NCBI RefSeq assembly: GCF_010983895.1
Contig: NZ_CP048836.1
Span: forward strand, 2,108,001 to 2,172,000
DNA length: 64,000 bases
Direction: 5' to 3'
Source: Nitrogeniibacter mangrovi
Lineage (GTDB): Bacteria; Pseudomonadota; Gammaproteobacteria; Burkholderiales; Rhodocyclaceae
Part shown: positions 43,789 to 64,000 of the stretch, piece after piece
How the letters are laid out: the number at the start of each line of letters is the position of its first letter
Numbering within the stretch: the first letter of the stretch is position 1
Translations under genes and position numbers: made by a program
The notes under the pieces: model-generated
Databases searched by the model: none
What the model saw: only the letters and a program-made list of their open reading frames with translations
Told to the model about the DNA's origin: nothing

Positions 43789-43801
43789 TTCTGAAACGGA
43801 G

Positions 43802-46917: not shown

Positions 46918-48234
46918 TCAGAAGAAACGATAGGTGTAGTCGATGTACAGGCGATGATCGCGTTCGTCGTCTTTCACACCGTCCAGACGGCCGGTCTTGT
47001 CGGACTTGTAGTCAAGATAGGTGTAGCGGACGCCAAGCCCCTTGAGCAGCGGGATAGCGTAGCGCACGTCCAGTGCCAGTTCACTCTCGTCGGCTTTGCC
47101 CAGCGCGGGCACATGGCTGTTGCGGGCACCGGTGCCTTTCTTGTAGCTGATCGTGGTCTTCAGGCCCTTGATGTAGTCCTTCCAGTTGTATCCGGCTTTG
47201 AGCATCCACACCCGTTCGTCTCGGTTGGTGAAGTCGGCCAACACGCCTCCGGTGGGGAACACATTGGTGCCGTGGTCACCGGCGAAGTTGTCTTCGATCC
47301 AGGCGCCGTCGAACTTTGCCACGGCCCCCCCGAGCAGAACATTGCCGAAGCTCCAGTCCGCCGCCACATAAACGCCGAGACCGTCGTTGTCGCTGGCGGT
47401 GGTGCCAGCTTTCGAACCGGGGACGTCTTCGTCATCCAGCTCGCCGCTTTCCGCGCCGGTCACGAACAGCTTGCCATCGTCATGGGAGGTGTGCACGCCG
47501 CCGGTGAGCTTCAGCTTCGACTTATTGGCCAGGTCGAAGGTGTACGACGCCACCAGACCGGTCTTGCGCAGGAAGTTGTCGGACTTCAGGTATTCCAGAT
47601 CGACACTGAAGGGGCCGGCGTCGTAGCTCACACCGATCAGGCCGATGTAGTCGATGTCGCCTTCGTCGGAACGGTCGGTCTTGAATTCGTGGAAGTGGGC
47701 ATCCGAGCGCGGCGACCATTCGTTGTACATGGCGCCATAGACCTTCAGGCCCTTCATCGGCTTGATATCGATGGTGCCGCCCGAGAAGGTGTTGGGAATC
47801 GCGCGGCTGCCCGAACTGCTCAGCAGCAGGCTCTTGTGAACCTGGCGGCCCAGCTTGGCGCTGACCACATCCTTGAACTTGAGCTTGACGAAGGCCTGGC
47901 CGATCTTGCCGAAGGAGTCGTGTACGTCGCCGTCTTTGTCCACCGACAGGATGTCGGAGGTCAGGTGGCCGCTTGCCCCCAACTTGGTCACGCTATAGCC
48001 CGACAAGCCGATCCCGATGAAGTCCCGGAAATAGGGCGATTCGTAGTTCAACTGCAGACCCAGCGCCGACTGGCTGCGATCTTTGGCGTCGTTCTCGTAG
48101 TCACGGTCGAAGTAGATACCGCGTGTCTTGAGTTCCAGCGAATGGCCCTCGGTGTCTGCGGCCGTGGCCGTTCCGCTCACGGCCAGCGCGCCGAGCATGA
48201 ACGGGAGCAGGGGGGAAATGTGATGCTGCTTCAT
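46918..48234 (-). CDS. OprD-family outer-membrane porin
   Basis: 438 residues. Signal peptide 1-25 (LPFMLGALAVSGTATA), then the OprD barrel: SLELKTRGIYFDRDYEN, QAFVKLKFKDVVSAKLGRQV, the loop SSSGSRAIPNTFSG, and a C-terminal aromatic YTYRFF. OprD porins take up amino or carboxylic acids; P. aeruginosa OpdH, for cis-aconitate, is a known member. Its position at the end of the tricarboxylate block and on the same strand makes uptake of those acids plausible. It has its own leader with a palindrome. Confidence 0.88.
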   Translation of the reverse strand: MKQHHISPLLPFMLGALAVSGTATAADTEGHSLELKTRGIYFDRDYENDAKDRSQSALGLQLNYESPYFRDFIGIGLSGYSVTKLGASGHLTSDILSVDKDGDVHDSFGKIGQAFVKLKFKDVVSAKLGRQVHKSLLLSSSGSRAIPNTFSGGTIDIKPMKGLKVYGAMYNEWSPRSDAHFHEFKTDRSDEGDIDYIGLIGVSYDAGPFSVDLEYLKSDNFLRKTGLVASYTFDLANKSKLKLTGGVHTSHDDGKLFVTGAESGELDDEDVPGSKAGTTASDNDGLGVYVAADWSFGNVLLGGAVAKFDGAWIEDNFAGDHGTNVFPTGGVLADFTNRDERVWMLKAGYNWKDYIKGLKTTISYKKGTGARNSHVPALGKADESELALDVRYAIPLLKGLGVRYTYLDYKSDKTGRLDGVKDDERDHRLYIDYTYRFF

Positions 48235-48258
48235 GGTGTCTCCTCTTGATTCTTCTGG

Positions 48259-48276
48259 ATTTGCCTCGAGGCAAAT
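48259..48276. promoter_or_regulatory. Perfect 18-bp palindrome upstream of oprD-type gene
   Basis: ATTTGCCTCGAGGCAAAT, two 9-bp arms with no spacer, 24 nt before the porin start. Likely a repressor-type operator controlling porin expression; the binding protein is unknown. Confidence 0.6.
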
Positions 48277-48397
48277 GCGGTGTTGGACGCAGCGCGCCAG
48301 GTGCCTTCTGATTTCGCCACCTTGATCGAAGTATGGTGGTCCTCATTGATGCGCGGAAATGCATTGCGTGCGCTAATTTATTCGATTAACGCAACAA

Positions 48398-48423
48398 CAA
48401 GGCGTACCGGGAGGCACGCCTTG
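48398..48423 (-). terminator. Terminator of the carboxylate operon
   Basis: CAAGGCGT-N10-ACGCCTTG hairpin about 67 nt beyond the PrpF-family stop, followed on the minus strand by TTGTTGCG, a modest U-rich run. It would separate the operon from the porin gene. Confidence 0.5.
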
Positions 48424-48490
48424 AACAGCGCGACAACGGTTCTCGAGGACAGGGTGGAGCGCCGGGGATGCGGGCTGCCCGGCGAGGGGA

Positions 48491-49588
48491 TCAGGCGGCC
48501 TGGTGGATTTGACCGACCGGGACGTGGACCACGCCGACGAACAGCGGGCGTGCGGTGCGAACCAGCCCGGCCACGGCGAAGCGGGGTGCCTCGGGGGTGG
48601 AGTCCGGGGCCTCTCCCATGCGGATGTCCAGGCCGCCGGCGGGGTGCTCGATGCCGATCAGATCGGGATCGTCCGCCGAGCGCCGGGCGTAGCGGGCCGG
48701 CACCGTACCGGCGATGCTGGCCGCCGCCGCGAGGCACAACGCGCCGGTGACGGCGAAGGCCGAGTGGCAGGACCACGGCGTGAAATAGCGCGAGGCGATG
48801 GTGCCGCCGCGCCCGGGGGCGGCCACCAGGGCGATTTTCGGCAGCACCGACTGGCGCACGTCGCCCAGCCCGGCGCGCAGGGCGATCTCGATGCGGATGG
48901 CTTCGAGGCGGGCCTTCAGCGCCGTGTCAGCGTCGAGTTCCTGCTTGGTTTCGTAACCGGTCTTGCCCAGGGCCTCGGCCGCCACGAAGACCAGCGGCGA
49001 CGCGAAATCGATGCAGGTCACCTCGATGCCGTCGACCCGGTCGATGCGTTGCCCGGTGGGGAACAATTGGCCAGTCTTGGCGCCGGCGGCATCGAGAAAA
49101 TTGAGCACGATCGGCGCCCCCGTGCCGGGCACGCCGTCGATCCGCGTGTCGCCTTCGTAGGTCACGACGCCGCCCGGCGTCTGCACCACGGCCTCGACGA
49201 TCTTGCCGGTGTTGCGGTTCAGGATGCGCAGCCGGGTGACCGGATCCTGCGCAGCGACCAGCCCGTTCTCGATCGCGAAGGGGCCGACGCCGGCAAGCAT
49301 GTTGCCGCAGTTGGGCATGGTGTCGACGGTCGACTGATCGACCGAGACCTGGGCAAACAGGTACTCGATGTCGATGTCCTCGCGCGACGAGGGGCTCACC
49401 ACCACCGCCTTGCTGGTGAGCGTGTCGCCGCCGCCGATGCCATCCACCTGGCGGATATGCGGCGAGCCCATGGCCGCGAGCAGCGTCCGGTCGCGCTCGA
49501 CCGGATCGCTCGGCAGGTCACAGGCCTGGAAGTAGGGCCCCTTCGAGGTGCCGCCGCGCATCAGGGTGCAGGGAATGTTCTTGAACAT
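48491..49588 (-). CDS. PrpF/GalD-family isomerase (aconitate isomerase candidate)
   Basis: 365 residues. The N-terminal LMRGGTSKG and GIGGGDTLTSKAVVV and the central DTMPNCGNMLAGVGPFA (Cys 94) are diagnostic for the PrpF/DapF-fold family, which moves double bonds by proton transfer on 2-methylaconitate, oxalomesaconate or aconitate. It is closest in style to 4-oxalomesaconate tautomerase GalD, but there are no gallate genes here. Fungal Adi1, converting cis- to trans-aconitate, is in this family, and the neighbours handle aconitate-related acids. It is the last gene of the block. Confidence 0.82.
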   Translation of the reverse strand: MFKNIPCTLMRGGTSKGPYFQACDLPSDPVERDRTLLAAMGSPHIRQVDGIGGGDTLTSKAVVVSPSSREDIDIEYLFAQVSVDQSTVDTMPNCGNMLAGVGPFAIENGLVAAQDPVTRLRILNRNTGKIVEAVVQTPGGVVTYEGDTRIDGVPGTGAPIVLNFLDAAGAKTGQLFPTGQRIDRVDGIEVTCIDFASPLVFVAAEALGKTGYETKQELDADTALKARLEAIRIEIALRAGLGDVRQSVLPKIALVAAPGRGGTIASRYFTPWSCHSAFAVTGALCLAAAASIAGTVPARYARRSADDPDLIGIEHPAGGLDIRMGEAPDSTPEAPRFAVAGLVRTARPLFVGVVHVPVGQIHQAA

Positions 49589-49691
49589 GGATTCCTCGTT
49601 CGCAGTTCAACCACAAGCGCTCCATTCTCACGCGCGAGGGTTGATGACTGAAGTGAAAACTTCAGCCTTACTGATGCCTTTTGAGCAATAG

Positions 49692-50660
49692 TCAGCGTGT
49701 TGCGGCGGCGCTGAGATACGCGCGCACATGGCCAAACGCATTATCGAAATACGCCTCATAGGTGTCGCGCTCCACGAAGCCCAGATGCGGCGTGCACAAA
49801 ATGCGCGGGTGGCCCAGGTAGGCCTGCACGCCGCCCGGTTCGTCCTCGAACACATCGAGTGCGGCAAAACCCGGCCGCCCGGCAGCCAACGCAGCGAGCA
49901 GGGCGCCGGGGGCGATCAGTTCGGCACGGCTGGTGTTGACCAACAAGGCATGGGGCTGCATGGCGGCAAGGTCGGCGGCGGTGACGATGTGGCGCGTCTC
50001 CGGGGTCATGCGCAGGTGCAGGCAGAGCACATCGGCTTGCGCGAAGAAGGCCTTGCGGTCGGCCTCGAAGTGGTCGCCTGCCTGAGTGGCGGCCTGCTCG
50101 GAGCCGTCGCGCCCGTGGGCAATCACCCGCATGCCGAAGGCGCGACCGAAGCTCGCGACCCGCGCGCCGATTCGTCCGTAACCCCAGATGCCCAGCGTGC
50201 GGCCGTGGAGCACCGTGCCAAGCGTCTCGTCTTCGCGTTGCTCGGCGCTGCGCTGCCAGCGGCCGGCCTCGAGCTGGCGCACGTAGGGCACCAGCCGGCG
50301 CGACGCGGCCAGTACCAGCGCCCAGGTCAGTTCGGCCGGTGCGATGGGGTTGCCGCTGCCCTCGCGTACGATCACGCCGTGGCGGGCGCAGGCGTCGAGG
50401 TCGATGCACGAGGCGAGCCGCCCGGTCTGCACGATCAGTTCGAGCTTGGGCAAGGCGGCGATGAGCTCGGCGCCGATGCGGGTGCGCTCGCGGATGAGCA
50501 CCAGACAGCGGGTCTCGCGCAGGGCGTCGATGAGTGCCGCGTCGTTGTCCAGCGGCTCGTGCAGCACCTGCAGGTGCGCATCGAGGCCGTCGAGCAGGCG
50601 CGTGGCGTCGAGGCGCGACACGACGCCCTGATAGTCGTCCAGCACGGTGATGCGGTTCAT
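49692..50660 (-). CDS. D-2-hydroxyacid dehydrogenase family protein
   Basis: 322 residues. NAD-binding fold GIWGYGRIGARVASFGRAFG (about residues 145-165). The catalytic triad positions are recognisable: Arg in NTSRAELI, Glu in DVFEDEPGG and His in CTPHLGFVE. The family reduces 2-oxoacids or oxidises D-2-hydroxyacids. The substrate is not evident; an acid intermediate of this block is plausible. ATG 50660 is preferred because GGAG precedes it. Confidence 0.85.
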   Translation of the reverse strand: MNRITVLDDYQGVVSRLDATRLLDGLDAHLQVLHEPLDNDAALIDALRETRCLVLIRERTRIGAELIAALPKLELIVQTGRLASCIDLDACARHGVIVREGSGNPIAPAELTWALVLAASRRLVPYVRQLEAGRWQRSAEQREDETLGTVLHGRTLGIWGYGRIGARVASFGRAFGMRVIAHGRDGSEQAATQAGDHFEADRKAFFAQADVLCLHLRMTPETRHIVTAADLAAMQPHALLVNTSRAELIAPGALLAALAAGRPGFAALDVFEDEPGGVQAYLGHPRILCTPHLGFVERDTYEAYFDNAFGHVRAYLSAAATR

Positions 50661-50680
50661 GGGCAGCTCTCCGGAAGGGA

Positions 50681-51982
50681 TCATTCGCTTGAGCGGGGCG
50701 CGATGCCCTGGGCGGCATACAGGGGGCGCAGGTGTACCCGCATGGATTCAAGTCGCAGATAGAAGCGTGCGCCCGCGCCCATCAGCAGCAAACCGGCCGC
50801 GAGCAGCGCTGCTTCGGGGCCGATGAGGCCGCCCACCCAGCCGACCAGCAGGCCGCCGACAGCCGCGGCACCGAGGTTGGCGGCGGTGTACAGCGCCAGC
50901 ACCCGCCCGCGCAGCCCCTCGGGCAGGATCGTCTGCAGGATGGTGTTGGTCGAGGCATTGCACACGATCATGCTGAAGCCGAGCAGGAACAATTGCACCA
51001 GGGCCAGCCACAGCGCGTCGGTCAGCGCGAAGCCGGTGAGCGACACCCCGGCGAGCAGATTGGCGTGCAGGATGCTGCCGGTGAGGCCGCGCACCGAGGG
51101 GCGCGACATCAGATAGGCCGAGGCCACCAGTGCGCCGGCGCCGGCGCTGCCGAGCAGCACGCCGAGGGTGTTCGGCCCGCCGGCGAACACGTCGCGAGCG
51201 AAGGCCGGCATCATCGGCAGATAGCTCGCGGCAAAGAAGTTCAGCAGGGCCACCTGCGTCAGCAGCATGCGCACCGGCACGCTGCTTCGGACGTAGCCGA
51301 AGCCCTCGCGCATCGCCGTGCCGAAGGGCGTGGGCGCCGCTGGCGAGGCGGACGGGGCGAGCCTGCGCAGCGCCAGGATCAAGGCCAGGAACGAGACGCC
51401 ATTGACCGCAAAGCACACCGCCGCCGAGGTGGCCGCCAGCAGCAGCCCGGCCGCCGGCGGGCCGATGAAGCGGGCGACGTTGAAGGTCAGCGTATTGAGC
51501 GCGATGGCGTTGGGGATGTCCTCGCGCCGGGGGACGAGCTGTCCGGCCAGCGAATGGCGCAGCGGCGCGTCGAAGCTGTTGAGCACTCCCAGCACGCCGG
51601 CGGCGACCAGAATCAGCCAGGGGGTGATCCAGCCGACATAGGTGAACACCGCCAGAAACACCGCCTGCGCCAACATCAGCGTCTGGACTTGCAGCATCAG
51701 GCGTTTGCGGTCGCTGCGGTCGATGATGATGCCGGCGAAGGGGGCCACCATCAGCTGGGGGGCGTTGCTCAGAAACGCCACGGCGCCCAGCAGCACGGTC
51801 GAGTCGGTGAGCCGGTAGACCAACCAGCCGAGGGCCACCTGCTGGATCCAGGTGCCGACCAGTGACAGCAACTGGCCGAAGAAGTAATGCCGGTAGGCCG
51901 GCGAGCCCAGCGCGCGCCAGGCCTGGCGACGCGCCGGGTTCGCCGGCCTCGTGGGTGTCGTTTCTGGTAAGGACCTAGCCAT
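50681..51982 (-). CDS. MFS transporter, EntS-like (MFS_3)
   Basis: 433 residues with about twelve membrane segments. [38 protein letters not shown] and [14 protein letters not shown] are characteristic of the EntS/MFS_3 group, usually exporters. In the Salmonella tcu operon the transporter TcuC is also MFS but of a different subgroup (metabolite:H+ symporter), so this may export rather than import. Its start overlaps the tcuB stop by 8 nt. Confidence 0.85.
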
Positions 51983-53144
51983 CGCTGCCGACGCCGATCG
52001 GATTGGGGCGTCGCTTCTCGATCGCCCACTTGAGCAGCGCCGCGCTACGGTAGAAACCGTGGGCGAACTTGCCGTAGGGCATGGTCAGGAACAGGCCCAT
52101 CACCACGCCGAGGTGGATCGCCAGCAGCACGCCCATGGCGCCCGTGTCGCGGCCGGCGAGCAAGGCCAGACCGCTCAGGCTGGTGAACAACAGCAAGGCA
52201 ATGAAGCCGCGATCCATCGGCTTTTGCGCTGCGTCACCATGTTCGGGGTGACGCTTCAGGTTCAGCCAGAACAGCCCGGCCGGGCCGATCAGCAGGCCGA
52301 TGCCGCCCACGGTGCCAAGCACCACCGGCAGGCTGGTGAAGGCATAGGGCGCCTCCCAGCCGAACACGTAGTGATACAGCGTGGCGACGCTGGTGGCGGC
52401 AAAGCACAGCATGAAACCGTAAAAGGTCAGGTGATGGAAGCGCCGCCGCGCGAGGGTGAAGGCATCGTCGGCGTTGTTGCAGCCGAGGCCGTGGCCACCG
52501 TCGAGGTAGGTCAGGCGCAGCACGTCATGGGTGGTCTCTGCGATGGCCTCGCCGCTGGCCGCGCCGGGGGCGGCCTCGCGCCAGAAGCGGGTGACGCCGA
52601 TGCCCAGCGCCAGCGCCGCGAACAGGAACACCGGCGCGAACATCGACACCAGCAGGTTGTGCGGGAAGATGGCGTAGAAGTCGCCGGCCAGCGGTGTGTG
52701 GAAGAGCGTGCCTTGCAGGGCGAGCGCGAGCACCAGGAACAGGGCCAATCCGCCGGCGACGGCCAGCGCGACGGTCACGCCGTTGTTGCGGTAGAGCTTG
52801 CCAAAACCGGTCGGCCAGGCAAAGTCCGAATAAGTGTGCGCGCGCACCCTGGCCATGGCCTGGGGCACGTTGACTGCGAACTCGTGCGGCGGCGCGTACT
52901 GGCAGGCGTGCAGGCAGGCACCGCAGTTGTGGCACAGATTGGCCAGGTAGTGCACGTCGGCCTTGTCGAAGCAGAGCCGACGGGTCATGGCCGGGAACAC
53001 CGCGCAGAAGCCTTCGCAGTAGCGGCAGGCGTTGCAGATCTGCAGGATCCGGCTGACCTCGGCTTCGTCGGCCTGGGGGGCGGGCAGGGCGCGTCCGGCG
53101 GCCAGGTCGGCCGCTTCGCGGGTGAGGGTGTCAAGCGTGTGCAT
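51975..53144 (-). CDS. tcuB: Tricarballylate utilisation Fe-S membrane protein TcuB
   Basis: 389 residues. Two Fe-S motifs near the N-terminus: [15 protein letters not shown] (about 37-51) and [16 protein letters not shown] (about 72-87). About six membrane helices follow, with histidines that could bind haem. TcuB accepts electrons from the flavin of TcuA and passes them to quinone, allowing oxidation of tricarballylate to cis-aconitate. Start overlaps the tcuA stop region by 14 nt. Confidence 0.92.
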
Positions 53145-54555
53145 GGGTTGCTCCCTGGCGCGCGGCTGCCGCGGCATGGGCGCCGGCGATGCGGCCGAAG
53201 GTCGTGCCGATGGTCATGCCGACCCCGGCGGTGTAGCCCTTGCCGAGCACGTTGCCGGCCATCATTTCCCCGGCGACGAACAGGTTGGGGCTGGGCTGGC
53301 CCGAGAAATGGACGGCGGCGTGTTCGTCCACTTTCAGGCCCAGGTAAGTGAAGGTGATGCCCGGCTTGAGCGCGTAGCCGCGGAAGGGCGGGGTATCGAT
53401 GGGCAGCGCCCAGTGGGTCTTGGCCGGCGACAGGCCTTCGGTGTGGCAGTCGTCCTGGATGGTGTGATCGAAGGTGCCGACGCGACAGGCGGCGTTGTAC
53501 GCGTGCACCGTGCGCACGAAGGCAGCCTCGTCGATGCCCAGCTGGCGGGCGAGTGCTTCGAGCGTGTCGGCCTGGGCGCCGGGAAACACCGGCGGCATGA
53601 AGCGGCCATTGGCCTTGGCGTCGATGATCGAGAAGCCGATCTGCCCGGGTTGCTGGGCGACCAGGCGCCCCCAGATGGCGTAGCGCTTGGGCCAGAAGTC
53701 CTCGCCTTCGTCGTAGAAGCGCTCGGCGTGCTGGTTGACCACGATGCCCAGCGAGACGCAGTCGATGCGGGTGCAGATGCCGCCGTCGTACTCCGGGGCG
53801 CGTGCATCAATGGCCACGCAGTGCGATTGCGAGGGGTCGCCGACGGTGTCGGCGCCGGCGTCGATCATGGCCTTGAGCAGCACGCCGCGATTGAAGCGGG
53901 TGCCGCGGATGGCGAAGTTGTCGGCCGGCCACTCGCCGTTCTCGTTCTGCCCCCAGGCCTCGCGCAGCCACTCACGGTTGGACTCGAAGCCGCCGGCGGC
54001 CATCACGCAGGCGCGGGCGGCGATGCGTTCGTTGCCGACCCAGGCGGCGCGAAAGGCGCCGTCTTCCAGCTCGATCCGGTCCACCGGCGACGCGTAGCGG
54101 ATGCGCACACCCAGTGCCTCGGCACTACGGTAGTAGGCATTGACCAGCGCCTTGCCACCGCCCATGAAGAAGGCATTGGTGCGCGACAGGTGCAGCGTGC
54201 CGGACAGCGACGGCTGGAAATTGACGCCATGCTTGCGCATCCAGTCGCGGCAGCCGGACGACTCGCGGATGGCGAGGCGGGCGAGCCTCTCGTTGGTGAG
54301 GCCGCCGGTGACCTTGAGCAGGTCTTGCCAGAATTCTTCTTCGGGATAGCGGTCGGTCAGCACGTCCTGTGGCGCGTCGTGCATGCAGCGCAGGTTACGG
54401 GTGTGACTGGAGTTGCCGCCGCGCCAGGCCCGGGGGGCGGCTTCGAGCAGCAGCACCGAGGCGCCGGCTTCGCGGGCGACCAGCGCGGCGCACAGCGCGG
54501 CGTTACCGCCGCCGATGACCAGGACGTCCACCGTGTGGGCGTGCGCGTGTTCCAT
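53131..54555 (-). CDS. tcuA: FAD-dependent tricarballylate dehydrogenase TcuA
   Basis: 474 residues. FAD fold [19 protein letters not shown] (about 10-28), then [15 protein letters not shown] and the fumarate-reductase-like middle with [15 protein letters not shown]. The C-terminal [22 protein letters not shown] is typical of TcuA. It oxidises tricarballylate to cis-aconitate. AGGAG precedes ATG 54555. Confidence 0.92.
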
Positions 54556-54638
54556 GAGTCGTGCTCCTGTTCGCAATGGTGTTGAGCTCGACTATCGCGG
54601 TTTCGGAGCAGGTTGCCCTAAGTCGAAGCCATATCTGG

Positions 54639-55574
54639 CTATCTCGATTCGAGATGGAGCGCGGTGACGCCACGCCAGCGGCCGCTGTCGACCAGCTGGC
54701 CGACGGTGCGCTGCAAGGTGCTGCGGGTGGCGATGGCGGCGGGCGACAGTTCGTCCTCCGACAGGCTGCACACCAGGTTGCGCCGCGCGGTGCCGTCGTC
54801 CTCGAGTTCGCACCAGCGCAGGCACGCGTCTGCGTCGGGCTGGCGGGCGAGGGCCGCCCAAGGCTGCACGCTGGCGCCCAGACCGTTGCGGACCATGTCC
54901 ATCAGGACATAGAGCGAGTCGACCTCGGCGATCACGTTGGGGGTGATGCCCAGCGCGTTGAAGGCGTTGTCGAGTACGCGGCGCAGGCCGTGGCGCGGGG
55001 TGGGCAACACCAGCGGCAAGCCGTTCAGCGCGCCCAGCCGGGTGGGCAGCGGCGCGGGTGGGGTGTCGGCGCCGGCGATGACGAACAATCGCTCGTCGAG
55101 CATCGGCTGGATGGACCAGCGCCGCGCCTGGTGGCCGTCGAAGAGCACCGCGATGTCGAGTTCACGGCTGTTGAGCATCTGGCCGAGGTGGCCGGACATG
55201 GCCTCGACGAGCCGGATGCGGATATCGGGATACTGACGGTGCATCGCTTCCATCAGCGGCATGCCGAGCACGCCGGCGGTGGTGGGCGCCAGGCCAACGC
55301 TCACCACGCCCGACAGGCGGGCCTGCCGGGCGGCGCTGGCCGCTTCGTCGGCATGGCGCAGGCTGAGCTGCGCATGGGCGATGAAGGCCAGCCCGGCTTC
55401 GGTCGGCAAAATACCGTGGGGGCCGCGCTCGAGCAGGCGGGTGGAGAGCTCGCTCTCGAGCTTCTGGATCTGCAGGCTGACGGCCGACTGCGCCACACCG
55501 AGGTCGAGCGCCGCCTGGCTGATGCTGCCCAGTTCGATCGTTCGCAAGAGATAACGCAGTTGTCGCAGTTCCAT
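54639..55574 (-). CDS. LysR-family regulator, TcuR-like
   Basis: 311 residues. HTH at about 3-60 (LRQLRYLLRTIELGSISQAALDL and IQKLESELSTRLLERGP), effector domain from about 90 (GVVSVGLAPTTAGVLGMPLM). The LysR gene TcuR activates tcuABC in Salmonella; here the gene lies on the same strand 83 nt upstream of tcuA. It may control the whole carboxylate block. Confidence 0.85.
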   Translation of the reverse strand: MELRQLRYLLRTIELGSISQAALDLGVAQSAVSLQIQKLESELSTRLLERGPHGILPTEAGLAFIAHAQLSLRHADEAASAARQARLSGVVSVGLAPTTAGVLGMPLMEAMHRQYPDIRIRLVEAMSGHLGQMLNSRELDIAVLFDGHQARRWSIQPMLDERLFVIAGADTPPAPLPTRLGALNGLPLVLPTPRHGLRRVLDNAFNALGITPNVIAEVDSLYVLMDMVRNGLGASVQPWAALARQPDADACLRWCELEDDGTARRNLVCSLSEDELSPAAIATRSTLQRTVGQLVDSGRWRGVTALHLESR

Positions 55575-55638
55575 CGCTGTCGATGCCCGTCAAAAGTGAA
55601 ACGGGCACGGCGTGGCCGCCTGCCCGTTTCGGTGCGAG

Positions 55639-55818
55639 TCAGTTCTCGCTCAGAATGGCGACCCGGCCCATGTCGCTCGATCGCGCCGGGTCGTCGCCAG
55701 CGGGGCGGGGCGCCTCGGCACGTTCCCCGTCCCTTGCTTGGCTGATCGAACCGAACATGACCGGGCAGTCGAGCTGATGCCGAGCCAGCTCGTTGAGTTG
55801 CCTGTCCGAGGCTTGCAT
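55639..55818 (-). CDS. Possible small ORF following the fumarase-like gene
   Basis: 59 codons, starting one nucleotide after the preceding stop (TAAGATG). The product is polar with no recognised domain (starts MQASDRQLNELARHQ, ends VAILSEN). Coupled reading is possible, but coding potential is uncertain and it may be chance. Confidence 0.3.
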   Translation of the reverse strand: MQASDRQLNELARHQLDCPVMFGSISQARDGERAEAPRPAGDDPARSSDMGRVAILSEN

Positions 55819-55819
55819 C

Positions 55820-57178: not shown

Positions 57179-57219
57179 GGTGTTGCTCCTTGAATGGGGG
57201 GATTCCGTGTTGTCAGGTG

Positions 57220-58041
57220 TCAGTGGGGGTCGCCGGCGCGGCTGCGGGCGAGGATGGCCCGTGCCTTGAGCATCACCGGCCGGTCGATCATCTTTCCGTC
57301 GAGCTGGACGGCACCATCGGCGGCCTCGGCCGCGGCCAGCACCCGGTGCGCCCAGTCCTGTTCCTCGGCGCTGGGGCGGGCGGCTGCATGGATCCACGCC
57401 ACCTGTTTGGGGTGAATGCACATCTTTGCGCCGAAGCCGAAGGTCCGCGCAAAGGCGAAGTCGGCGAGCACGCGCGCCTCGTCGGTGACCGAGGGGGTGA
57501 CGCCGGCCACCGGCGAGGGCAACTCGGCACAGCGTGCGGCAATGGCGATGCGAGAGGACGCGTAGGCCAGGCCCGCCTCGTCGCCTGACAGGTCGAGGTC
57601 CACCGCATAGTCCAGCGTACCGAAGGCCAGCCGTGCGACGCCGTCGGAGGTGGCGATCTGATCGACGTTGTGGATGCCGCGCGCGGTTTCGACCAGCGCC
57701 AGCACCTCGGCGCCGGGTGCCGTCGAGCGGACCCGATCGATCTGTTCCGGCCATTCGCTCTTGGGCAGCATCACCCAGCGAATCCCGGCCTCGCGGATCA
57801 TGGCCAGATCGTCGGAAAACCACACCGATTGGGTGTCGTTGATGCGCACGGCGATGCGCTCGGCCAGTGTCGCGTGCTGGCCGACCCAGGTGGCGATCGC
57901 GTCGCGTGCGGCCGACTTGTCCGTGGGGGCCACCGCATCCTCGAGGTCGAGAATGATCGTCCCGGCGTCGGTGGCGAAGGCCTTGTCAAACCGCTCCGGA
58001 CGGTTGCCCGGAACGAAGAGATAGGTGATGGGCGGGTGCAT
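57220..58041 (-). CDS. ccl: CitE-like CoA-ester lyase, candidate (S)-citramalyl-CoA lyase
   Basis: 273 residues. TYLFVPGNRPERFDKA start, metal and substrate residues in IILDLEDAV, ALVETARGIHN and FGTLDYAVDL, as in the CitE/HpcH family. With the CoA transferase and MaoC hydratase next to it, it matches Ccl of the Yersinia/Pseudomonas itaconate pathway, cleaving citramalyl-CoA to acetyl-CoA and pyruvate. Malyl-CoA lyase activity is an alternative. Confidence 0.82.
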   Translation of the reverse strand: MHPPITYLFVPGNRPERFDKAFATDAGTIILDLEDAVAPTDKSAARDAIATWVGQHATLAERIAVRINDTQSVWFSDDLAMIREAGIRWVMLPKSEWPEQIDRVRSTAPGAEVLALVETARGIHNVDQIATSDGVARLAFGTLDYAVDLDLSGDEAGLAYASSRIAIAARCAELPSPVAGVTPSVTDEARVLADFAFARTFGFGAKMCIHPKQVAWIHAAARPSAEEQDWAHRVLAAAEAADGAVQLDGKMIDRPVMLKARAILARSRAGDPH

Positions 58042-58062
58042 GATGAGTGTCTCCGGTGCCGC

Positions 58063-59244
58063 TCAGATCACGCCAGCGGCCTTGAGCTCTTCCACCTGGT
58101 CGGCCGGATAGCCGAGCTCGGCGAGGATCGCCGCGGAGTGGGCGCCCAGGGCGGGCACCGGATCCATGCGCGGATCGCCTTGTTCCCACGAGCCGGGCGG
58201 CAGCAATGCCGGGACGGTGCCGACCGAGGTCTGGACCTCGCGCCAGCGCTTGCGCGCCTTGAGCTGGGGGTGCGCCCATACGGCATGCATGTCGTTGACC
58301 TGGGCATTGGCGATCTGCGCGGCATCGAGCCGTTCGACCACCTGCGCAGCGCTCAGCTCGGCGAAGGCGTCGATGATGATCTGGCGCAACTCGACGCGCG
58401 CGGCGCTGCGCCGCGAGTTGCTCGAGAAGCGTTCCTCGTGCGCCAGCTCGGGCTGGAGCAGGACCTTGGCGCAGAAGCCGGCCCATTCGCGTTCGTTCTG
58501 CAAACCGAACATCACCGTCTTGCCGTCGCCGGCCGGGAAGGGGCCGTAGGGGTAGATGGTGGCGTGGCTGGCGCCGGTGCGCGGCGGCGGGGCGGCGCCG
58601 TCGAAGGCGTAGTAGAGCGGGTAGGTGGTCCATTCGACCAGGCTCTCGAGCATCGAGATGTCCAGATGCTGGCCGCGGCCGGTCTTCTGGCGCTGCATCA
58701 GGGCGGCGAGGATGTTGGTGTAGGCGTACATGCCGGCCGAGATGTCGGCGATCGAGGGGCCTGCCTTGCAGGGCTCGTCCTCGGTGCCGGTCACCGAGAG
58801 GAAGCCGGATTCGCTCTGGATGAGCAGGTCGTAGGCCTTCTTGTCGCGGTAGGGGCCGTCGGCGCCGTAGCCGGAGATGTCGCACACGATGATCTCGGGC
58901 TTGATGGCCGACAGCGCCTCGTACGACAGGCCGAGCCGCGCCGCCGCGCCGGGCGCCAGGTTCTGTACCACCACGTCGGCCTCTTCGACGATCAGCTTCA
59001 TGAGCGCGGCCTGCGCCTCCGGATGCTTGACGTCGAGGGTGAGGGATTCCTTCGAGCGGTTGATCCAGACGAAGTGCGAAGCCAGGCCGCGAACGCGCTC
59101 GTCGTAGCCGCGGGCGAAGTCGCCCACGCCGGGGCGCTCGACCTTGATCACGCGCGCGCCCAGGTCGGCGAGCTGGCGGGTGGCGAAGGGCGCCGCGATG
59201 GCGTGTTCGAGGGTGACGACGGTAATGCCTTCAAGGGGTCTCAT
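58063..59244 (-). CDS. ict: CaiB/BaiF family III CoA transferase, candidate itaconate CoA transferase
   Basis: 393 residues. Start LEGITVVTLEHAIAAPFATRQLADLGARVIKVERPG is the family signature, and the catalytic Asp lies in GPSIADISAGM. It transfers CoA from succinyl-CoA or similar to a carboxylate. Context with Ich and Ccl homologues indicates itaconate as substrate. The gene starts 9 nt after the MaoC hydratase. Confidence 0.85.
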   Translation of the reverse strand: MRPLEGITVVTLEHAIAAPFATRQLADLGARVIKVERPGVGDFARGYDERVRGLASHFVWINRSKESLTLDVKHPEAQAALMKLIVEEADVVVQNLAPGAAARLGLSYEALSAIKPEIIVCDISGYGADGPYRDKKAYDLLIQSESGFLSVTGTEDEPCKAGPSIADISAGMYAYTNILAALMQRQKTGRGQHLDISMLESLVEWTTYPLYYAFDGAAPPPRTGASHATIYPYGPFPAGDGKTVMFGLQNEREWAGFCAKVLLQPELAHEERFSSNSRRSAARVELRQIIIDAFAELSAAQVVERLDAAQIANAQVNDMHAVWAHPQLKARKRWREVQTSVGTVPALLPPGSWEQGDPRMDPVPALGAHSAAILAELGYPADQVEELKAAGVI

Positions 59245-59253
59245 GGGCGTTCC

Positions 59254-60099
59254 TTACTTGATGACGGCGGTGGCTTCCATGGTCAGCCAACCCTCGTGGT
59301 CCTTCGCCCACAGGCGGAAGGTCTTGCCGTCGGGCTGCGGCTCGCCGCAGACGAAGAAGTGGTTGATGTCGAATACCGGGCGCACCGCGCGGAACTCGTA
59401 GCTGGCGAGTTCGGCGTCGGGCAGCTGGTGGCGCAGCAGATCGAGCAGCAGGGTGGCGACCATCGGGCCGTGCACCACCAGGCCGGGGTAGCCCTCGACC
59501 TCGGTCACGTACTTTCGGTCGTAGTGGATGCGGTGGCCGTTGAAGGTCAGCGCCGAGTAACGGAACAGCAGCACGTCGTCGGGCACCCACTTCTTTTCCC
59601 AGGTGGCGCTCGCCGGCGCGGCCTTGGGCGGCGGCGCGACGTCATCGGGTTTGGCAGCCTCGCGATAGACGATGTCGTGAAACTCGGTCAGCGCGATGTC
59701 CGCTTCGCCTTCGCGGCGGATTTCGTGGCGCACCTTCACGAACACCAGCGGTCCGGTGCGGCCGCTCTTCTCGGTGACGTCGTGGATGGTCGAGGTGCGT
59801 GTCATCGCGTCGCCGATGTGCAAGGGCTTGTGAAAGGTGAATTGGCTGCCGGCCCACATGCGGCGGGGCAGGGGCACTGGCGGCAGGAAACCACCGCGCT
59901 TGGCGTGACCGTCAGGGCCGATTTCCGACTGGCGGTGGAGCGGCAGGAAATACAGCCAGTGCCACAGGCCGGGCAGCGGCGTGCCGACCGGCGGGCGTTC
60001 GGCGGGGCGGTCAAAGGTCGCCGACAGGGCGGCATAGGGGGTGGCGGTGGCGATGTCGGAAACCGTTTCCGAGCGGCCGATCCAGTCCTTGAGGTTCAT
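59254..60099 (-). CDS. ich: MaoC-like hydratase, candidate itaconyl-CoA hydratase
   Basis: 281 residues with two hot-dog domains. The second carries the MaoC motif region FNGHRIHYDRKYV and LVVHGPMVATLL. Size and neighbours fit itaconyl-CoA hydratase (Ich, as in the P. aeruginosa and Yersinia itaconate clusters) and the related mesaconyl-C4-CoA hydratase. It would form citramalyl-CoA. ATG 60099 (MNLKDWIGRSE) has an acceptable GGAG upstream. Confidence 0.83.
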   Translation of the reverse strand: MNLKDWIGRSETVSDIATATPYAALSATFDRPAERPPVGTPLPGLWHWLYFLPLHRQSEIGPDGHAKRGGFLPPVPLPRRMWAGSQFTFHKPLHIGDAMTRTSTIHDVTEKSGRTGPLVFVKVRHEIRREGEADIALTEFHDIVYREAAKPDDVAPPPKAAPASATWEKKWVPDDVLLFRYSALTFNGHRIHYDRKYVTEVEGYPGLVVHGPMVATLLLDLLRHQLPDAELASYEFRAVRPVFDINHFFVCGEPQPDGKTFRLWAKDHEGWLTMEATAVIK

Positions 60100-60144
60100 G
60101 CAGTATCTCCAGCGGGGAGGATTGCGGGGTAATGTCGGCCCGCC

Positions 60145-60165
60145 GCGCGCCCGCACGGGGCGCGC
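60145..60165 (-). other. Hairpin between dctM and ich-like genes
   Basis: GCGCGCCC-N5-GGGCGCGC stem-loop in the 76-nt gap. No U run follows, so it is more likely a processing or stability element than a terminator. Confidence 0.4.
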
Positions 60166-60175
60166 GAGCGGCGCG

Positions 60176-61459
60176 TCACATCATTCCGAGGGTCTTCGGC
60201 AGCCACAGCGAGAGCGGCGGCCAGTAGGTGACGATGGCGAGGAACACCAGCATGGTCAGCAGCCAGGGGCCGACCGCCTTGCTCATGTCGGTCATGCCGA
60301 GCTTGGTGATGCCGCTGGCCACGTAGAGGTTGAGGCCGACCGGCGGGGTGATCATGCCGATCTCCATGTTCACCGTGATCATCACGCCGAAATGCACCGG
60401 GTCGATGCCCAGGCTCGTCGCGATCGGGAAGAGGATCGGCGCGAAGATCAGGATGATCGACGAGGGCTCCATGAAGTTGCCCGCGACCAGCAGGATGATG
60501 TTGGTGAGCAGCAGGAAGCCGATCGTGCCCAGCCCGCTGTCGATGATCCATCCCGACATTTGTTGAGGGATCTGCTCGTTGGTGAGCAGGAAGGAGAACA
60601 GGACCGCGTTGGTGATGATGTAGAGCAGCATCGCCGACAGGTTGGCCGACGAGATCAGCACCTTCTTGAGGTCCTTCAGCTTGAGGTCCTTATAGACGAA
60701 CACCGCGATCACGAAGGCATAGACCGCGCTCATCGCCGCCGCCTCGGTGGCAGTAAAGATGCCGGAGTAGATTCCGCCCATCACCACCACGATCAGCAGC
60801 AGGCCCCAGATCGATTCACGGAAGGCCTTGACGCGCTGGGCCCAAGTCGCACGCGGTGCGCGCGGGTAATTGTTCTTGCGCGCCAGCCACCAGGTGGTGA
60901 ACAGCAGCATGCTGGCCAGCACCAGGCCCGGGAAGACACCGGCCATGAAGAGCGCACCGATCGAACTGTTGGTCGATACCGCGTACATGACCATCGCGAT
61001 CGAGGGCGGAATCAGGATGCCGAGGCCGCCCGCCGAGGCGACCACGCCGGCGCCGTACTTGACCGGATAGCCGGACTTGACCATGGCGGGCAGCAGGATC
61101 GAGCCGATCGCCACCACCGTGGCCGGGCTCGAACCCGAGACCGCGGCAAACAGCGCGCAGGCCACCACCGCACTCAGACCGAGGCCGCCGGCCATGTGTC
61201 CCACCATCGAGGTGGCGAAGTTGATCATTCGCCGCGCGACACCGCCGTGGGTCAGGAAGTTGCCCGCCAGGATGAAGAAGGGCACCGCCATGATCTCGAA
61301 CTTCTCGATGCCGGTGAAGAGCTTGAGGGCCACGCTTTCGATCGGCACCTGGCTCATGAAGAAGAGGAAACTCAGCACGGTCAGACCGAGCGAGATCGAG
61401 ATCGGCATGCCAGTGACCATGAGCCCCAGCAGCAATGCAAAGATGATGGCTGTGCTCAT
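60176..61459 (-). CDS. dctM: TRAP transporter large permease DctM
   Basis: 427 residues with about twelve membrane segments. FFILAGNFLTHGGVARRMINFA, SGSSPATVVAIGSILLPAM and GILIPPSIAMVMYAVST are DctM signatures. With DctP and DctQ it imports carboxylates using an ion gradient. Its ATG overlaps the DctQ stop by four bases. Confidence 0.93.
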   Translation of the reverse strand: MSTAIIFALLLGLMVTGMPISISLGLTVLSFLFFMSQVPIESVALKLFTGIEKFEIMAVPFFILAGNFLTHGGVARRMINFATSMVGHMAGGLGLSAVVACALFAAVSGSSPATVVAIGSILLPAMVKSGYPVKYGAGVVASAGGLGILIPPSIAMVMYAVSTNSSIGALFMAGVFPGLVLASMLLFTTWWLARKNNYPRAPRATWAQRVKAFRESIWGLLLIVVVMGGIYSGIFTATEAAAMSAVYAFVIAVFVYKDLKLKDLKKVLISSANLSAMLLYIITNAVLFSFLLTNEQIPQQMSGWIIDSGLGTIGFLLLTNIILLVAGNFMEPSSIILIFAPILFPIATSLGIDPVHFGVMITVNMEIGMITPPVGLNLYVASGITKLGMTDMSKAVGPWLLTMLVFLAIVTYWPPLSLWLPKTLGMM

Positions 61460-62133
61460 TTCGAGCCTCCGTTCTTTTCGTGTTGCCCGTGGTCCAGATC
61501 GCGCGGATAGACGTCGCTGGGATCGGGTGCCTCGACGCCCATGTCAATGTCGTCCATGCCGTCGACATGGCCATGGTCGTGATGGGGCAACTCGCCGGTT
61601 CGGATGAAGGACCAGCACACCTGCAGGAAGCGGAAGCACATCAGGGCGCTGCCGAGCGGGATGGCCGAATAGACGATCCAGGTCGGCCATTCGAGATCGA
61701 CCGTGGTCGGGCCTTCGAGCGCATCTCCGGTGTCCAGGCCGAGGCTGCTGAAGATCGAGTAGTGGGCACCGTTGTCCCACACGAACTGCGCACCCACCGT
61801 GGCAATGATGCCGGTGAACAGGGCGCCCGCGAGCAGGCCGAAGACGATGAACTTGAAGCGCAGCTTGTCGGAGAGCCGGTTGATCAGTACGTCGACACCG
61901 ACGTGGATGCCGGTTCGCACGCCATAGGCGGCACCGAACTTGGCCATCCAGACGAACATGATGATGGTCAGTTCCTGCGCCCAGGCCATGTTGATGGAAA
62001 TGAGCCAGTCCTGCAGGCCGGGGATGGCGAATCCGCTCGCGTAGCGATGAACCACCGCAAGGAAGGTGATGACCGTCGCCGCCCCGATCAGGAACGTGAT
62101 GAGCCACTCCTCGAGGGCGTCAAGAAATTTCAT
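61456..62133 (-). CDS. dctQ: TRAP transporter small permease DctQ
   Basis: 225 residues. Four membrane segments with the DctQ pattern (ALEEWLITFLIGAATVITFLAVVHRY and later WAQELTIIMFVWMAKFGAAYGVRTG). The C-terminal tail is long and Asp/His-rich (HHDHGHVDGMDDIDMG), more extended than usual. Small subunit of the DctPQM importer. Confidence 0.9.
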   Translation of the reverse strand: MKFLDALEEWLITFLIGAATVITFLAVVHRYASGFAIPGLQDWLISINMAWAQELTIIMFVWMAKFGAAYGVRTGIHVGVDVLINRLSDKLRFKFIVFGLLAGALFTGIIATVGAQFVWDNGAHYSIFSSLGLDTGDALEGPTTVDLEWPTWIVYSAIPLGSALMCFRFLQVCWSFIRTGELPHHDHGHVDGMDDIDMGVEAPDPSDVYPRDLDHGQHEKNGGSK

Positions 62134-62161
62134 GATGGAACCTCTCAGGGAAATCGAGGGC

Positions 62162-62191
62162 GCGGGCGGCCGCTGTGGCCGTCCCGCCCGC
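62162..62191 (-). other. Hairpin between dctP and dctQ
   Basis: GCGGGCGG...CCGCCCGC stem with an inner GGCC/GGCC pairing, in the 63-nt gap after dctP. No U run. Such hairpins often protect binding-protein mRNA and lower permease expression. Confidence 0.5.
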
Positions 62192-62196
62192 TAGCC

Positions 62197-63189
62197 TTAC
62201 TCGGCGCCCGTTTCCTTGCGGATTGCGCTGACAAGATCCTTGCCGACGCGCGAGGCGAGTTCGTCCTGCACGGGGGCCATGGCCTCGACCCACTGCGCCT
62301 TCTCCTGCGGCGTCGGGACGTGGATCTCCGTCTTGCCGGAAGCCTTGATCGCGGCCAACGCGGTGGCTTCGTCCTCTTCGGCGATCTTCTCGTTGAAGGC
62401 AGTCGCTTCATCGACCGCTTTTTCGAGGCTTGCGCGGATGTCGGCCGGCAGCTTCTCCCAGAAAGGCTTGTTCACCACCACCACGTAGCCGCTGTAGGTG
62501 TGGTGCGTGAGCGTTGCGTACTTCTGCACCTCGTACTGCTTCTGCGTGTAGAGGTTGGGCAGGTTGCCGTCCGTGCCGTCCACCACGCCGGTCTGCAAAG
62601 CCTGATAGACCTCGGAGAACGCCATGCTCTGCGGCAGTGCGCCGATCGAGCGGATGATCGCCTGGTTCACCTTGGAGGAGTTGACGCGAATCTTCTGCCC
62701 CTTGGCCTCGTCCGGCGTGCGAATCGGTTTGTTGGAGCTCAGCACGCGAAAACCCGCGTCCCAGAAAGCCAGACCGACCATGCCGCGCGGCTCGAGCTTC
62801 TTCAGCAGCGATGCACCGATCGGTCCGTGGGTGATGCGATGCAGCGATTCGGTATCCGGGAAGATGTAGGGCATGTCGAAGACTTCAAATTCCTTCACGC
62901 CGGCCGGACCGAATTTCCCGGCCACGGGCGCAAGCATCTGCACCGAACCCAGCTGCAGGGCTTCGAGCTCCTCCTTGTCCTTGTAAAGGATGCTGTTGGG
63001 GTAGATTTCTACCTTGACCTTGCCCTTGGTGAGCGCCTCGGCACGCTCCTTGAAGAATTCGGCTGCGCGGCCCTTCGGGGTATCGGCCGCCGCAACGTGC
63101 GAAAACTTGATGACGATTTCGTCTTGTGCCAGCGCGGCGCCGGAAGTGAGCATGGCGACTGCTGCGGTGATAGCAAAGATTCGCTTCAT
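62197..63189 (-). CDS. dctP: TRAP transporter substrate-binding protein DctP
   Basis: 330 residues. Signal peptide 1-22 (FAITAAVAMLTSGAALA), then IVIKFSHVAAADTPKGRAA, LGSVQMLAPVAGKFGP and the GQKIRVNSSKVNQAIIRSIGALP region with the conserved Arg that binds a carboxylate. Periplasmic receptor of the importer. AGGAG precedes ATG 63189. Confidence 0.93.
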   Translation of the reverse strand: MKRIFAITAAVAMLTSGAALAQDEIVIKFSHVAAADTPKGRAAEFFKERAEALTKGKVKVEIYPNSILYKDKEELEALQLGSVQMLAPVAGKFGPAGVKEFEVFDMPYIFPDTESLHRITHGPIGASLLKKLEPRGMVGLAFWDAGFRVLSSNKPIRTPDEAKGQKIRVNSSKVNQAIIRSIGALPQSMAFSEVYQALQTGVVDGTDGNLPNLYTQKQYEVQKYATLTHHTYSGYVVVVNKPFWEKLPADIRASLEKAVDEATAFNEKIAEEDEATALAAIKASGKTEIHVPTPQEKAQWVEAMAPVQDELASRVGKDLVSAIRKETGAE

Positions 63190-63239
63190 GGTTTGTCTCC
63201 TGTTATCGGAATAGGTCTGACCAGAAACCTCGATCGCGC

Positions 63240-64000
63240 TTACGCTGCCGAGCTGACTTGGCCGGTTTGTGGAACATGGCGCCCGGGACGGGCGAATACG
63301 CAACCGGTCAGCAAGGGACGTGCACTCGTCACGACCCTTGCTGAGTCGAATACCGGTATTCCGTGGTCGTTGTGACCGCGAATCTCGAGGTGAATGGTCA
63401 TGGAACCGCTCGGGTGTTCGATGGCGATGCGGCCCAATTGCTGGGCGTCGAGTTCGACCAGATCTTCTGCCACCGAGCCCGTGACATGGCAGGCGGCGGC
63501 CAGTGCCACCGCGCCGGAGATGCCGAAGGTGGCATGGCACCATTTCGGCGAAAAGTAGCGCGCCGCGATATTGCCGCCCCTGCGTGGCGAGGCCACGATG
63601 GCGATCTTGGGCAGGGCAACGCTCTGGTGGTCCTCGAGTCCCATCCGCTTGGCGGCGTCCAGGCGGATCGCTTTGAGACGGTCCGAAAACACCGTGTCGG
63701 CGTCGAGTGCTTTTTTCGACTCGTGACCGGTCTTGCCGAGCGCTTCGGCCTTGACGAGAACCAGTGGAATCGCGCAGTCGATACAGGTCGCCTCGACGCC
63801 ACAGATGATGTCGCGGGCCCGACCCGTCGGCAGCAACATGCCAGTGCCGGTTCCGGCCGGTTCGAGAAAGCGCAGTTCGATCGGGGCGAAACTGCCGGGG
63901 ACACCGTCGAGTTGGAAGCTGCCTTCGTAGGTCACCTTGCCGCCGGGCGTGCGCACGGTCACTTCGGCAATCTTGCCGCTGTTCAGGTTGAGTACGCGGA
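63240..64000 (-). CDS. Second PrpF-family isomerase, 5' end beyond window
   Basis: About 253 residues of the C-terminal two-thirds, reading off the right edge. VLNLNSGKIAEVTVRTPGG at the window edge and CIDCAIPLVLVKAEALGKTG match the paralogue at 48491-49588. WCHATFGISGAVALAAA corresponds to the paralogue's CHSAFAVTGALCLAAA. The catalytic-Cys motif is outside the window. First known gene of the block in transcription order; dctP follows after 50 nt. Confidence 0.85.
   Translation of the reverse strand, partial: RVLNLNSGKIAEVTVRTPGGKVTYEGSFQLDGVPGSFAPIELRFLEPAGTGTGMLLPTGRARDIICGVEATCIDCAIPLVLVKAEALGKTGHESKKALDADTVFSDRLKAIRLDAAKRMGLEDHQSVALPKIAIVASPRRGGNIAARYFSPKWCHATFGISGAVALAAACHVTGSVAEDLVELDAQQLGRIAIEHPSGSMTIHLEIRGHNDHGIPVFDSARVVTSARPLLTGCVFARPGRHVPQTGQVSSAA

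Follow-up and report, generated by a model that had tools for sequence, protein, structure and literature searches.

Itaconate is known both as a fungal product and as an antimicrobial of immune cells. The tricarballylate route of Salmonella (TcuABC/TcuR) ends in cis-aconitate, and to our knowledge trans-aconitate decarboxylase is known only from smut fungi. Here we describe a block of fifteen genes in a 64,000-nucleotide stretch of the Nitrogeniibacter mangrovi genome, hereafter the window (positions 2,108,001 to 2,172,000 of contig NZ_CP048836.1, our G000:C1:2108001-2172000; the host genome is one contig of 4.24 Mb). Judging from sequence comparison, we propose, with a probability of roughly 80%, that this block encodes the catabolism of aconitate and tricarballylate by way of itaconate.

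The separate parts of such a route have been described in other organisms. In Ustilago maydis, the PrpF-family protein Adi1 together with Tad1 turns cis-aconitate into itaconate via trans-aconitate (PMC4720413). Bacterial itaconate degradation by Ict, Ich and Ccl is known in Pseudomonas aeruginosa and Cupriavidus necator, and the known cluster also holds an acyl-CoA dehydrogenase and an MmgE/PrpD methylsuccinate isomerase, extra genes that serve methylsuccinate (PMC12290011). The tar system of Bacillus velezensis assimilates trans-aconitate by isomerisation to cis-aconitate, followed by the tricarboxylic acid (TCA) cycle, and the words itaconate and itaconic are absent from the main text of that report (PMC11495376). 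The itaconate regulator of P. aeruginosa is reportedly inducible also by cis- and trans-aconitate (PMC8526614). Among the matches listed in a search of the open-licence PMC literature, which is without bioRxiv preprints and most subscription papers, there was no report of a bacterial trans-aconitate decarboxylase or of aconitate degradation via itaconate; for purple bacteria, PMC8307300 speculates on a route that runs the other way. The enzyme families are therefore known, and their joining into this bacterial pathway is apparently unpublished within the literature searched.

All fifteen genes lie on the minus strand and occupy the stretch from position 46918 to the end of the window; in the list of open reading frames (ORFs), neighbours overlap slightly or are a short distance apart. 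Families were called by Pfam and NCBIfam profile scans with curated cut-offs, plus PDB sequence matches. Every family named in a preliminary description of this DNA (tcuA, tcuB, LysR, two PrpF, a fumarase-like gene, CaiB, MaoC, CitE, DctPQM and OprD) was recovered on that strand; two further genes, between TcuB and the second PrpF, had been missing from it, an MFS_3 transporter and a D-2-hydroxyacid dehydrogenase. The genes that would carry the chemistry are the following:

59254..60099 (ORF 60156-59254), minus strand: Ich, predicted itaconyl-CoA hydratase of the MaoC/FAS1-DH type; matches PDB 8khg/8huc
58063..59244, minus strand: Ict, predicted itaconate CoA-transferase, family III; PF02515 354 bits
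57220..58041, minus strand: Ccl, predicted (S)-citramalyl-CoA lyase, HpcH/HpaI-CitE; PDB 8khl/9nzb 171 bits
55820..57178 (ORF 57193-55820), minus strand: Tad, predicted trans-aconitate decarboxylase, Lyase_1/ADSL_C; Tad1 is the best match, S320 and R360 kept
53131..54555, minus strand: TcuA, FAD tricarballylate dehydrogenase; NF006130 770 bits, cut-off 369
51975..53177, minus strand: TcuB, 4Fe-4S membrane partner of TcuA; NF011607 696 bits, cut-off 524
48491..49588, minus strand: PrpF1, predicted cis/trans aconitate isomerase; PF04303 388 bits, NF033377 494 bits, cut-off 440

In the proposed route, an OprD porin and a TRAP transporter would import the acids, and TcuA/TcuB, both above their curated NCBIfam cut-offs, would oxidise tricarballylate to cis-aconitate, as known for these families. 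PrpF1, judged by its family and catalytic residues, would interconvert cis- and trans-aconitate, and Tad, by kinship to the tested fungal Tad1, would turn trans-aconitate into itaconate and CO2. The last three steps would follow the known pathway: Ict would convert itaconate into itaconyl-CoA with succinyl-CoA, Ich would hydrate this to (S)-citramalyl-CoA, and Ccl would cleave the latter into acetyl-CoA and pyruvate.

The assignment of Tad carries most of this proposal. Among all PDB chains, its best matches are the Ustilago Tad1 chains, with 515-526 bits over about 440 residues, followed by 3c8t with 458 bits and CMLE with 362 and 336 bits. Identity between Tad1 and the window protein is 55.4% over 435 residues; with other bacterial members it reaches up to 60.7%, versus at most 49.5% among the 11 outside homologues compared. 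Foldseek of the predicted structure (pLDDT 87, pTM 0.89) ranks Tad1 9h3i first, at 53-54% identity, with CMLE 1re5 next at 38-40%. The window genome holds one Tad-like protein above 29% identity, the one in the block.

For phylogeny and gene neighbourhoods we analysed the best 80 of 216 relatives in a species-level genome collection, all with at least 74% Tad identity (module loci), and, as control, 40 loci of homologues at 34-53% identity from a phylum-wide sample. In a tree of 81 rows, which took 39 of the 80 module loci and the window, these 40 module rows are monophyletic (SH-aLRT 96) and Tad1 is their sister (99). A 52-row tree was built with 23 of the 80 module loci and the window after 13 of the 40 outside rows had been dropped (seven long branches, six near copies); here Tad1, a long branch in both trees, joins the 24 bacterial module rows in one clade (100/100) from which muconate-cycloisomerase-like rows are excluded. 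Constrained trees of the 52 rows that place Tad1 with either outside group gave p-AU values of 0.0102 and 0.0111.

Residues tell the same lineage apart. Eighteen alignment positions are Tad-specific, that is, their residue is found in at least 95% of 81 module rows and in Tad1, and in at most 15% of the 15 outside rows at 47-53% identity and of the 23 lower rows; at four of them (N33, V48, E105, A311) two further outside rows, at 45-46%, carry the same residue. S320 of Tad1 is among the eighteen, with Ser in 81 of 81 module rows and in none of the 40 outside rows. Outside the module the position holds Ala in 15/15 rows at 47-53% and 2/2 at 45-46%, and Gly in 22 and Ala in one of the 23 lower rows. 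According to their PDB titles, 9h4h is Tad1_S320A and 9h4g is Tad1-R360A with trans-aconitate; the S-to-A change of 9h4h had been visible earlier in the alignments, and the criterion for the 18 positions made no use of it. R360 is Arg in 81/81 module rows and in all 38 outside rows compared. We considered the group at 45-53% identity as a second Tad and rejected it, since it is without S320 and without Ich or Ccl nearby. Its members at 47-53% (L115-L129) form a group of their own within the CMLE superfamily, in which Ala occupies the place of S320. Six neighbouring genes were scanned in this group, five in L117, where a M29 peptidase and a TPR-type regulator accompany the Tad homologue, and one in L121, a GntR regulator.

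Taken together, these data support the window fumarase-superfamily protein as a putative bacterial counterpart of Ustilago Tad1. The preliminary description had cast it as a Tad1-type enzyme feeding Ict, Ich and Ccl, and best match, phylogeny, the Tad-specific serine and conserved linkage all back that prediction.

The genes that would receive itaconate are three adjacent ones, coding for a family III CoA-transferase, a MaoC-like hydratase and a CitE-like lyase. The sole PDB matches of Ich at E 0.001 are 8khg, an itaconyl-CoA hydratase (232 bits), and 8huc (229 bits), and the stretch TFNGHRIHYD is common to the window protein and the solved itaconyl-CoA hydratase; FAS1_DH_region is above its cut-off, and MaoC_dehydratas scores 19.3 versus 27 bits. 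The best PDB matches of Ccl, 8khl/9nzb, reach 171 bits, the next one 106. For Ict, the best NCBIfam model is succinate-glutarate CoA-transferase (253 bits, cut-off 750); no itaconate-specific NCBIfam model matched, and its use of itaconate is predicted. The window genome has one match each for Ich (E 1e-25), Ict (E 1e-60) and Ccl (E 1e-25), all inside the block. Gaps within Ich-Ict-Ccl-Tad measure 9, 21 and 41 bases with the chosen start codons, those of Ich, Tad and TcuA having been picked by eye.

This arrangement recurs well beyond N. mangrovi. Full-flank counts refer to the 50 of the 80 loci with at least 8 kb on either side of Tad, the other 30 being omitted from them. Within 9 kb of Tad (phmmer), 45 of the 50 carry Ich, 45 Ict and 39 Ccl, and all three occur in 37; PrpF is found in 40 and accompanies the complete trio in 33. 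DctM (10 loci) and OprD (12, and 14 among all 80) are less frequent than these. Of the 37 loci with all three, six lack a genus name and the rest fall into 18 named genera; Beta-, Alpha- and Gammaproteobacteria are all represented, and some genus labels of metagenome-assembled genomes, such as Granulosicoccus and Bordetella, may be wrong. Denitromonas (Zoogloeaceae, Rhodocyclales) is closest both by Tad identity (95-96%) and by gene order. In 57 loci the end of Ccl lies between 12 bases inside and 101 bases before the aligned start of Tad, counting only ORFs within 400 bases.

No Ich, Ccl, PrpF or Tcu match was found in the 40 control loci, two of which have a CaiB relative (38-39%). When the same tblastn was applied to both sets and only loci with 7 kb flanks were counted, 37 of 51 module loci had Ich, Ict and Ccl at most 7 kb from Tad, versus Ich or Ccl in 0 of 36 control loci, the remaining four of the 40 having less than 7 kb on one side. 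Fisher's test for 37/50 versus 0/40 gives 1.7e-14, with loci that are non-independent. Because the parts recur around Tad in most of the 80 relatives, the arrangement is not a matter of chance, and the conserved co-occurrence to which the preliminary description had pointed is thus found (the trio near Tad in 37/50 full-flank relatives, Ich or Ccl in 0/36 controls). Most of the fetched relatives share a core of Ich-Ict-Ccl-Tad plus PrpF; TcuAB and TRAP are lineage-specific additions.

Co-occurrence counts from an iterated search with hidden Markov models (HMMs) were rejected for false Ccl and inflated PrpF scores, because overlapping and fused ORFs had entered the alignments; of its output we used only the list of loci without the trio, which so loose a search could only shorten. 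A gene between Ich and Tad in L206, considered as a hidden CoA-transferase, was also rejected, its weak matches being to alpha/beta hydrolases. The Tad orthologue at L058:7330-10812 has no other block genes nearby and adjoins an acetyl-CoA-synthetase-like AMP-binding protein.

Our sample of the order, 399 genomes counting that of the window, was searched at E 1e-170 for Tad and E 1e-25 for Ich. Tad is present in six genomes and an Ich homologue in 101; Ich at 70% identity or more occurs in exactly the six Tad genomes, the next being at 69%. In the phylum sample, a Tad homologue above 53% identity is found in one of 398 genomes, the window's own. Tad is rare yet coupled to this Ich. Thirteen Ich loci that lack Tad were also fetched: seven have Ict (67-72%) close to Ich, eight have Ccl (40-48%), six both and four neither; the six with both look like ordinary itaconate degradation clusters. 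Two loci, L205 and L208, show the order Ich-Tad-TctC-TcuA-TcuB, with Ict/Ccl not nearby and Ict-like genes on other contigs.

The isomerisation step has two candidates. Shewanella PrpF binds trans-aconitate, with K73 and C107 in catalytic roles, and its C107S variant works weakly in vivo and has no measurable function in vitro (PMC5690661). PrpF1 retains the Lys and Cys that are mutated in the LigU structures 6p3h and 6p3k. PrpF2, which is complete as an ORF of 371 aa at L085:8241-9356, keeps the Lys, but its catalytic Cys is replaced by Ser; the same replacement is seen in all 16 readable PrpF2 rows, among them that of the window (one row, L009, is unreadable at the Cys position). Of the two PrpF genes in the preliminary description, then, both are present and only PrpF1 keeps the full catalytic Lys/Cys pair. 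By analogy with the weak Shewanella C107S variant, PrpF2 may be slow or act on another substrate. A normal PrpF1 accompanies PrpF2 in 14 of its 16 loci; in the remaining two, L004 and L012, the contig stops less than 6 kb downstream of Tad.

PrpF and a TctC domain (the tripartite tricarboxylate receptor) form one ORF in 30 of the 80 Tad loci, as Pfam confirmed in the three checked (examples are L025:7865-10000 and L057:13352-15442, with 28 other loci), and this fusion fits a tricarboxylate substrate. Some of these ORFs hold a signal-peptide-like stretch between the domains, and the Variovorax loci are without it; the Variovorax fusions look like cytosolic enzymes that have taken in a formerly periplasmic receptor. 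A third PrpF gene lies elsewhere in the window genome (G000:C1:534191-535321, L212) and possibly belongs to the 2-methylcitrate cycle.

The remaining genes of the block are these:

63240..64000 (ORF 63998-63240, truncated at the window end), minus strand: PrpF2, PrpF-family isomerase paralogue, C-terminal part; PF04303 174 bits
62197..63189, minus strand: DctP, TRAP solute-binding protein; TIGR00787 304 bits, cut-off 175
61456..62133, minus strand: DctQ, TRAP small membrane subunit; PF04290 74 bits, cut-off 28
60176..61459, minus strand: DctM, TRAP large membrane subunit; PF06808 438 bits, cut-off 24
54639..55574, minus strand: LysR-type regulator between the Tad and Tcu parts; PF03466 118 bits, PF00126 68 bits; a LysR gene immediately precedes TcuA in 18 of 22 loci with TcuA
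50681..51982, minus strand: MFS_3 transporter; PF05977 216 bits
49692..50684, minus strand: D-2-hydroxyacid dehydrogenase; PF02826 164 bits
46918..48234, minus strand: OprD-family porin; PF03573 135 bits

In the direction of transcription, the first half reads PrpF2, DctP, DctQ, DctM, Ich, Ict, Ccl and Tad, and the second LysR, TcuA, TcuB, MFS_3, D-2-hydroxyacid dehydrogenase, PrpF1 and OprD. As read in L085, the block overruns the window by about 355 bases, to about 64355 in window numbering, and past the complete PrpF2 stands a divergent LysR-like gene. No pathway step requires the MFS_3 and D-2-hydroxyacid dehydrogenase genes (49692-51982), which occur in 10/80 and 16/80 Tad loci. The block is adjoined on the plus strand, at 43438-46201, by genes for a cytochrome c, a YncE-like beta-propeller, a TlpA-like redoxin and a DsbD/CcdA-like membrane protein. 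Upstream of the block and the divergent LysR gene, on the block's strand, L085:10811-16202 holds FdhD, a molybdopterin oxidoreductase with NuoG-like iron-sulfur domains and a NuoF-like protein, a set that fits an NAD-dependent formate dehydrogenase.

Several observations weigh against a single route through itaconate. All the enzyme activities assigned in the block are predictions. The fold of Tad is by itself indecisive, because its TM-scores to Tad1 9h3i and CMLE 1re5 are alike (0.88-0.90). No NCBIfam model matches Ich at E 0.001, and the best one for Ccl, RipC_Ccl, scores 148 bits, under its cut-off of 375. PrpF1 exceeds the cut-off for 4-oxalomesaconate tautomerase (NF033377, 494 versus 440 bits). 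This model need not separate the tautomerase from an aconitate isomerase, since the closest homologue of known function of Adi1 is an oxalomesaconate tautomerase too (PMC4720413, Table 1). LigA (protocatechuate 4,5-dioxygenase) had no match in the window genome nor in any of 14 control genomes. The 80 loci are closest relatives and mutually dependent. None of Ich, Ict and Ccl is nearby in six of them; among the full-flank loci the trio is missing near Tad in four (L025, L046, L058 and L076), two of which, L058 and L076, are without PrpF as well.

The order-wide sample adds to these points. Ict and Ccl stand beside Tad in only one of the six Tad genomes, the window's own. Four others (G399, G438, G517 and G553) have Tad by Ich and TctC, with Ict (63-68%) on another contig and Ccl candidates that are 37-43% identical; two of the four also carry TcuAB with Tad, and a contig end is near in some cases. 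The sixth genome, G558, has Tad and Ich on separate contigs, and its closest Ict match is 44% identical. The whole trio beside Tad in only one of six Tad genomes slightly lowered our confidence in the proposed route.

The strongest alternative, which we regard as possible and clearly less probable than the single route, is that the block joins two independent neighbours: a tricarballylate system (TcuAB, PrpF1 and the porin) whose cis-aconitate goes to aconitase, and a separate trans-aconitate/itaconate system (PrpF2, TRAP and Ich-Ict-Ccl-Tad) for imported substrate only. A 245-base gap and the LysR gene part the halves between Tad and TcuA, each half has one PrpF, and TcuA is near Tad in 16 of the 50 full-flank relatives and lacking there in 34. 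The window genome also has aconitase-family genes, through which cis-aconitate could enter the TCA cycle directly, a further point against the itaconate route. On the other side, of the 22 loci with TcuA near Tad, 20 have it downstream of Tad and in the same orientation, and the PrpF with the full catalytic pair sits in the Tcu half, where it could convert the TcuAB product into the substrate of Tad.

These data also refine the single route. TcuA being near Tad in only 16/50 relatives, the core substrate is probably trans-aconitate, and tricarballylate would feed in via TcuAB and PrpF; the preliminary description had given tricarballylate and aconitates alike as substrates, and its aconitate route is supported, with TcuAB optional and confined to a minority. 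It had also opposed degradation via itaconate to aconitase: the itaconate route is supported, and because aconitase genes exist, it would be an alternative and no stand-in for a missing enzyme. Trans-aconitate inhibits aconitase, according to a 1949 title cited in PMC13188880, and the probable benefit of the pathway is to consume this inhibitor while bypassing the inhibited enzyme.

It is improbable that the Tad-like protein uses another substrate of the fumarase/CMLE superfamily, such as an aromatic ring-cleavage product or an amino-acid adduct, which Ich, Ict and Ccl would then serve. The best NCBIfam model for Tad is indeed 3-carboxy-cis,cis-muconate cycloisomerase, at 488.8 bits versus a cut-off of 595, and several other lyase models match; neither this cut-off nor that of TIGR02426 pcaB (347.3, cut-off 355.75) is reached, Tad1 is nearer by sequence and tree, and S320 and the other Tad-specific residues are kept. 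No pcaH (protocatechuate 3,4-dioxygenase) match was found in the window genome, versus four positives in 14 control genomes, and a CMLE/PcaB identity of Tad is disfavoured on these grounds. Very unlikely indeed is a Ustilago-like export of itaconate as an antimicrobial with Ict-Ich-Ccl for self-protection, which the MFS_3 gene and the fungal biosynthetic cluster of tad1 and adi1 with an MFS exporter (PMC4720413) would favour, and which the TRAP, porin and TcuAB genes of the block and the presence of each trio gene near Tad in 58-67 of 80 loci, versus MFS in 10/80, speak against.

Degradation of both acids through itaconate, if true, means that bacteria with this module produce itaconate as well as breaking it down. 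In addition to the published isomerisation to cis-aconitate, trans-aconitate would then have another fate in bacteria, decarboxylation to itaconate, and counting trans-aconitate users by PrpF homologues alone would mix both fates. On this reading, itaconate degradation genes in environmental bacteria need not mean exposure to host itaconate. The module also offers candidates for a bacterial trans-aconitate decarboxylase; this enzyme is of interest to the production of itaconic acid. More tentatively, and with somewhat less than even confidence, we suggest a recurrent proteobacterial degradation of trans-aconitate/tricarballylate in which itaconate is made and destroyed internally and with which Tad1, perhaps also Adi1, may share a common origin via horizontal transfer in either direction; the sampling behind this suggestion covered bacterial homologues and Tad1.

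Set beside the described systems, the block resembles each in part. With Ustilago Adi1/Tad1 it shares a PrpF-family predicted aconitate isomerase and a Tad1-type protein; the Ustilago system, however, is fungal and biosynthetic and exports its itaconate, whereas the block is bacterial and combines uptake-type transport genes with an itaconate-degrading trio. Like the B. velezensis tar system, it would use trans-aconitate with a PrpF-family aconitate isomerase, a transporter and a regulator, but tar takes trans-aconitate to cis-aconitate, while decarboxylation of trans-aconitate is predicted for the block. The likeness to Salmonella TcuABC/TcuR lies in TcuA and TcuB and in the LysR gene beside TcuA, to which the block adds Tad and the itaconate trio. 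With the itaconate cluster of P. aeruginosa and C. necator it has in common the same three enzyme families, adjacent and on one strand. Unlike that cluster, none of its fifteen genes belongs to the acyl-CoA dehydrogenase or MmgE/PrpD families; its Ccl is divergent, under the RipC_Ccl cut-off, and it adds Tad, PrpF and transport genes.

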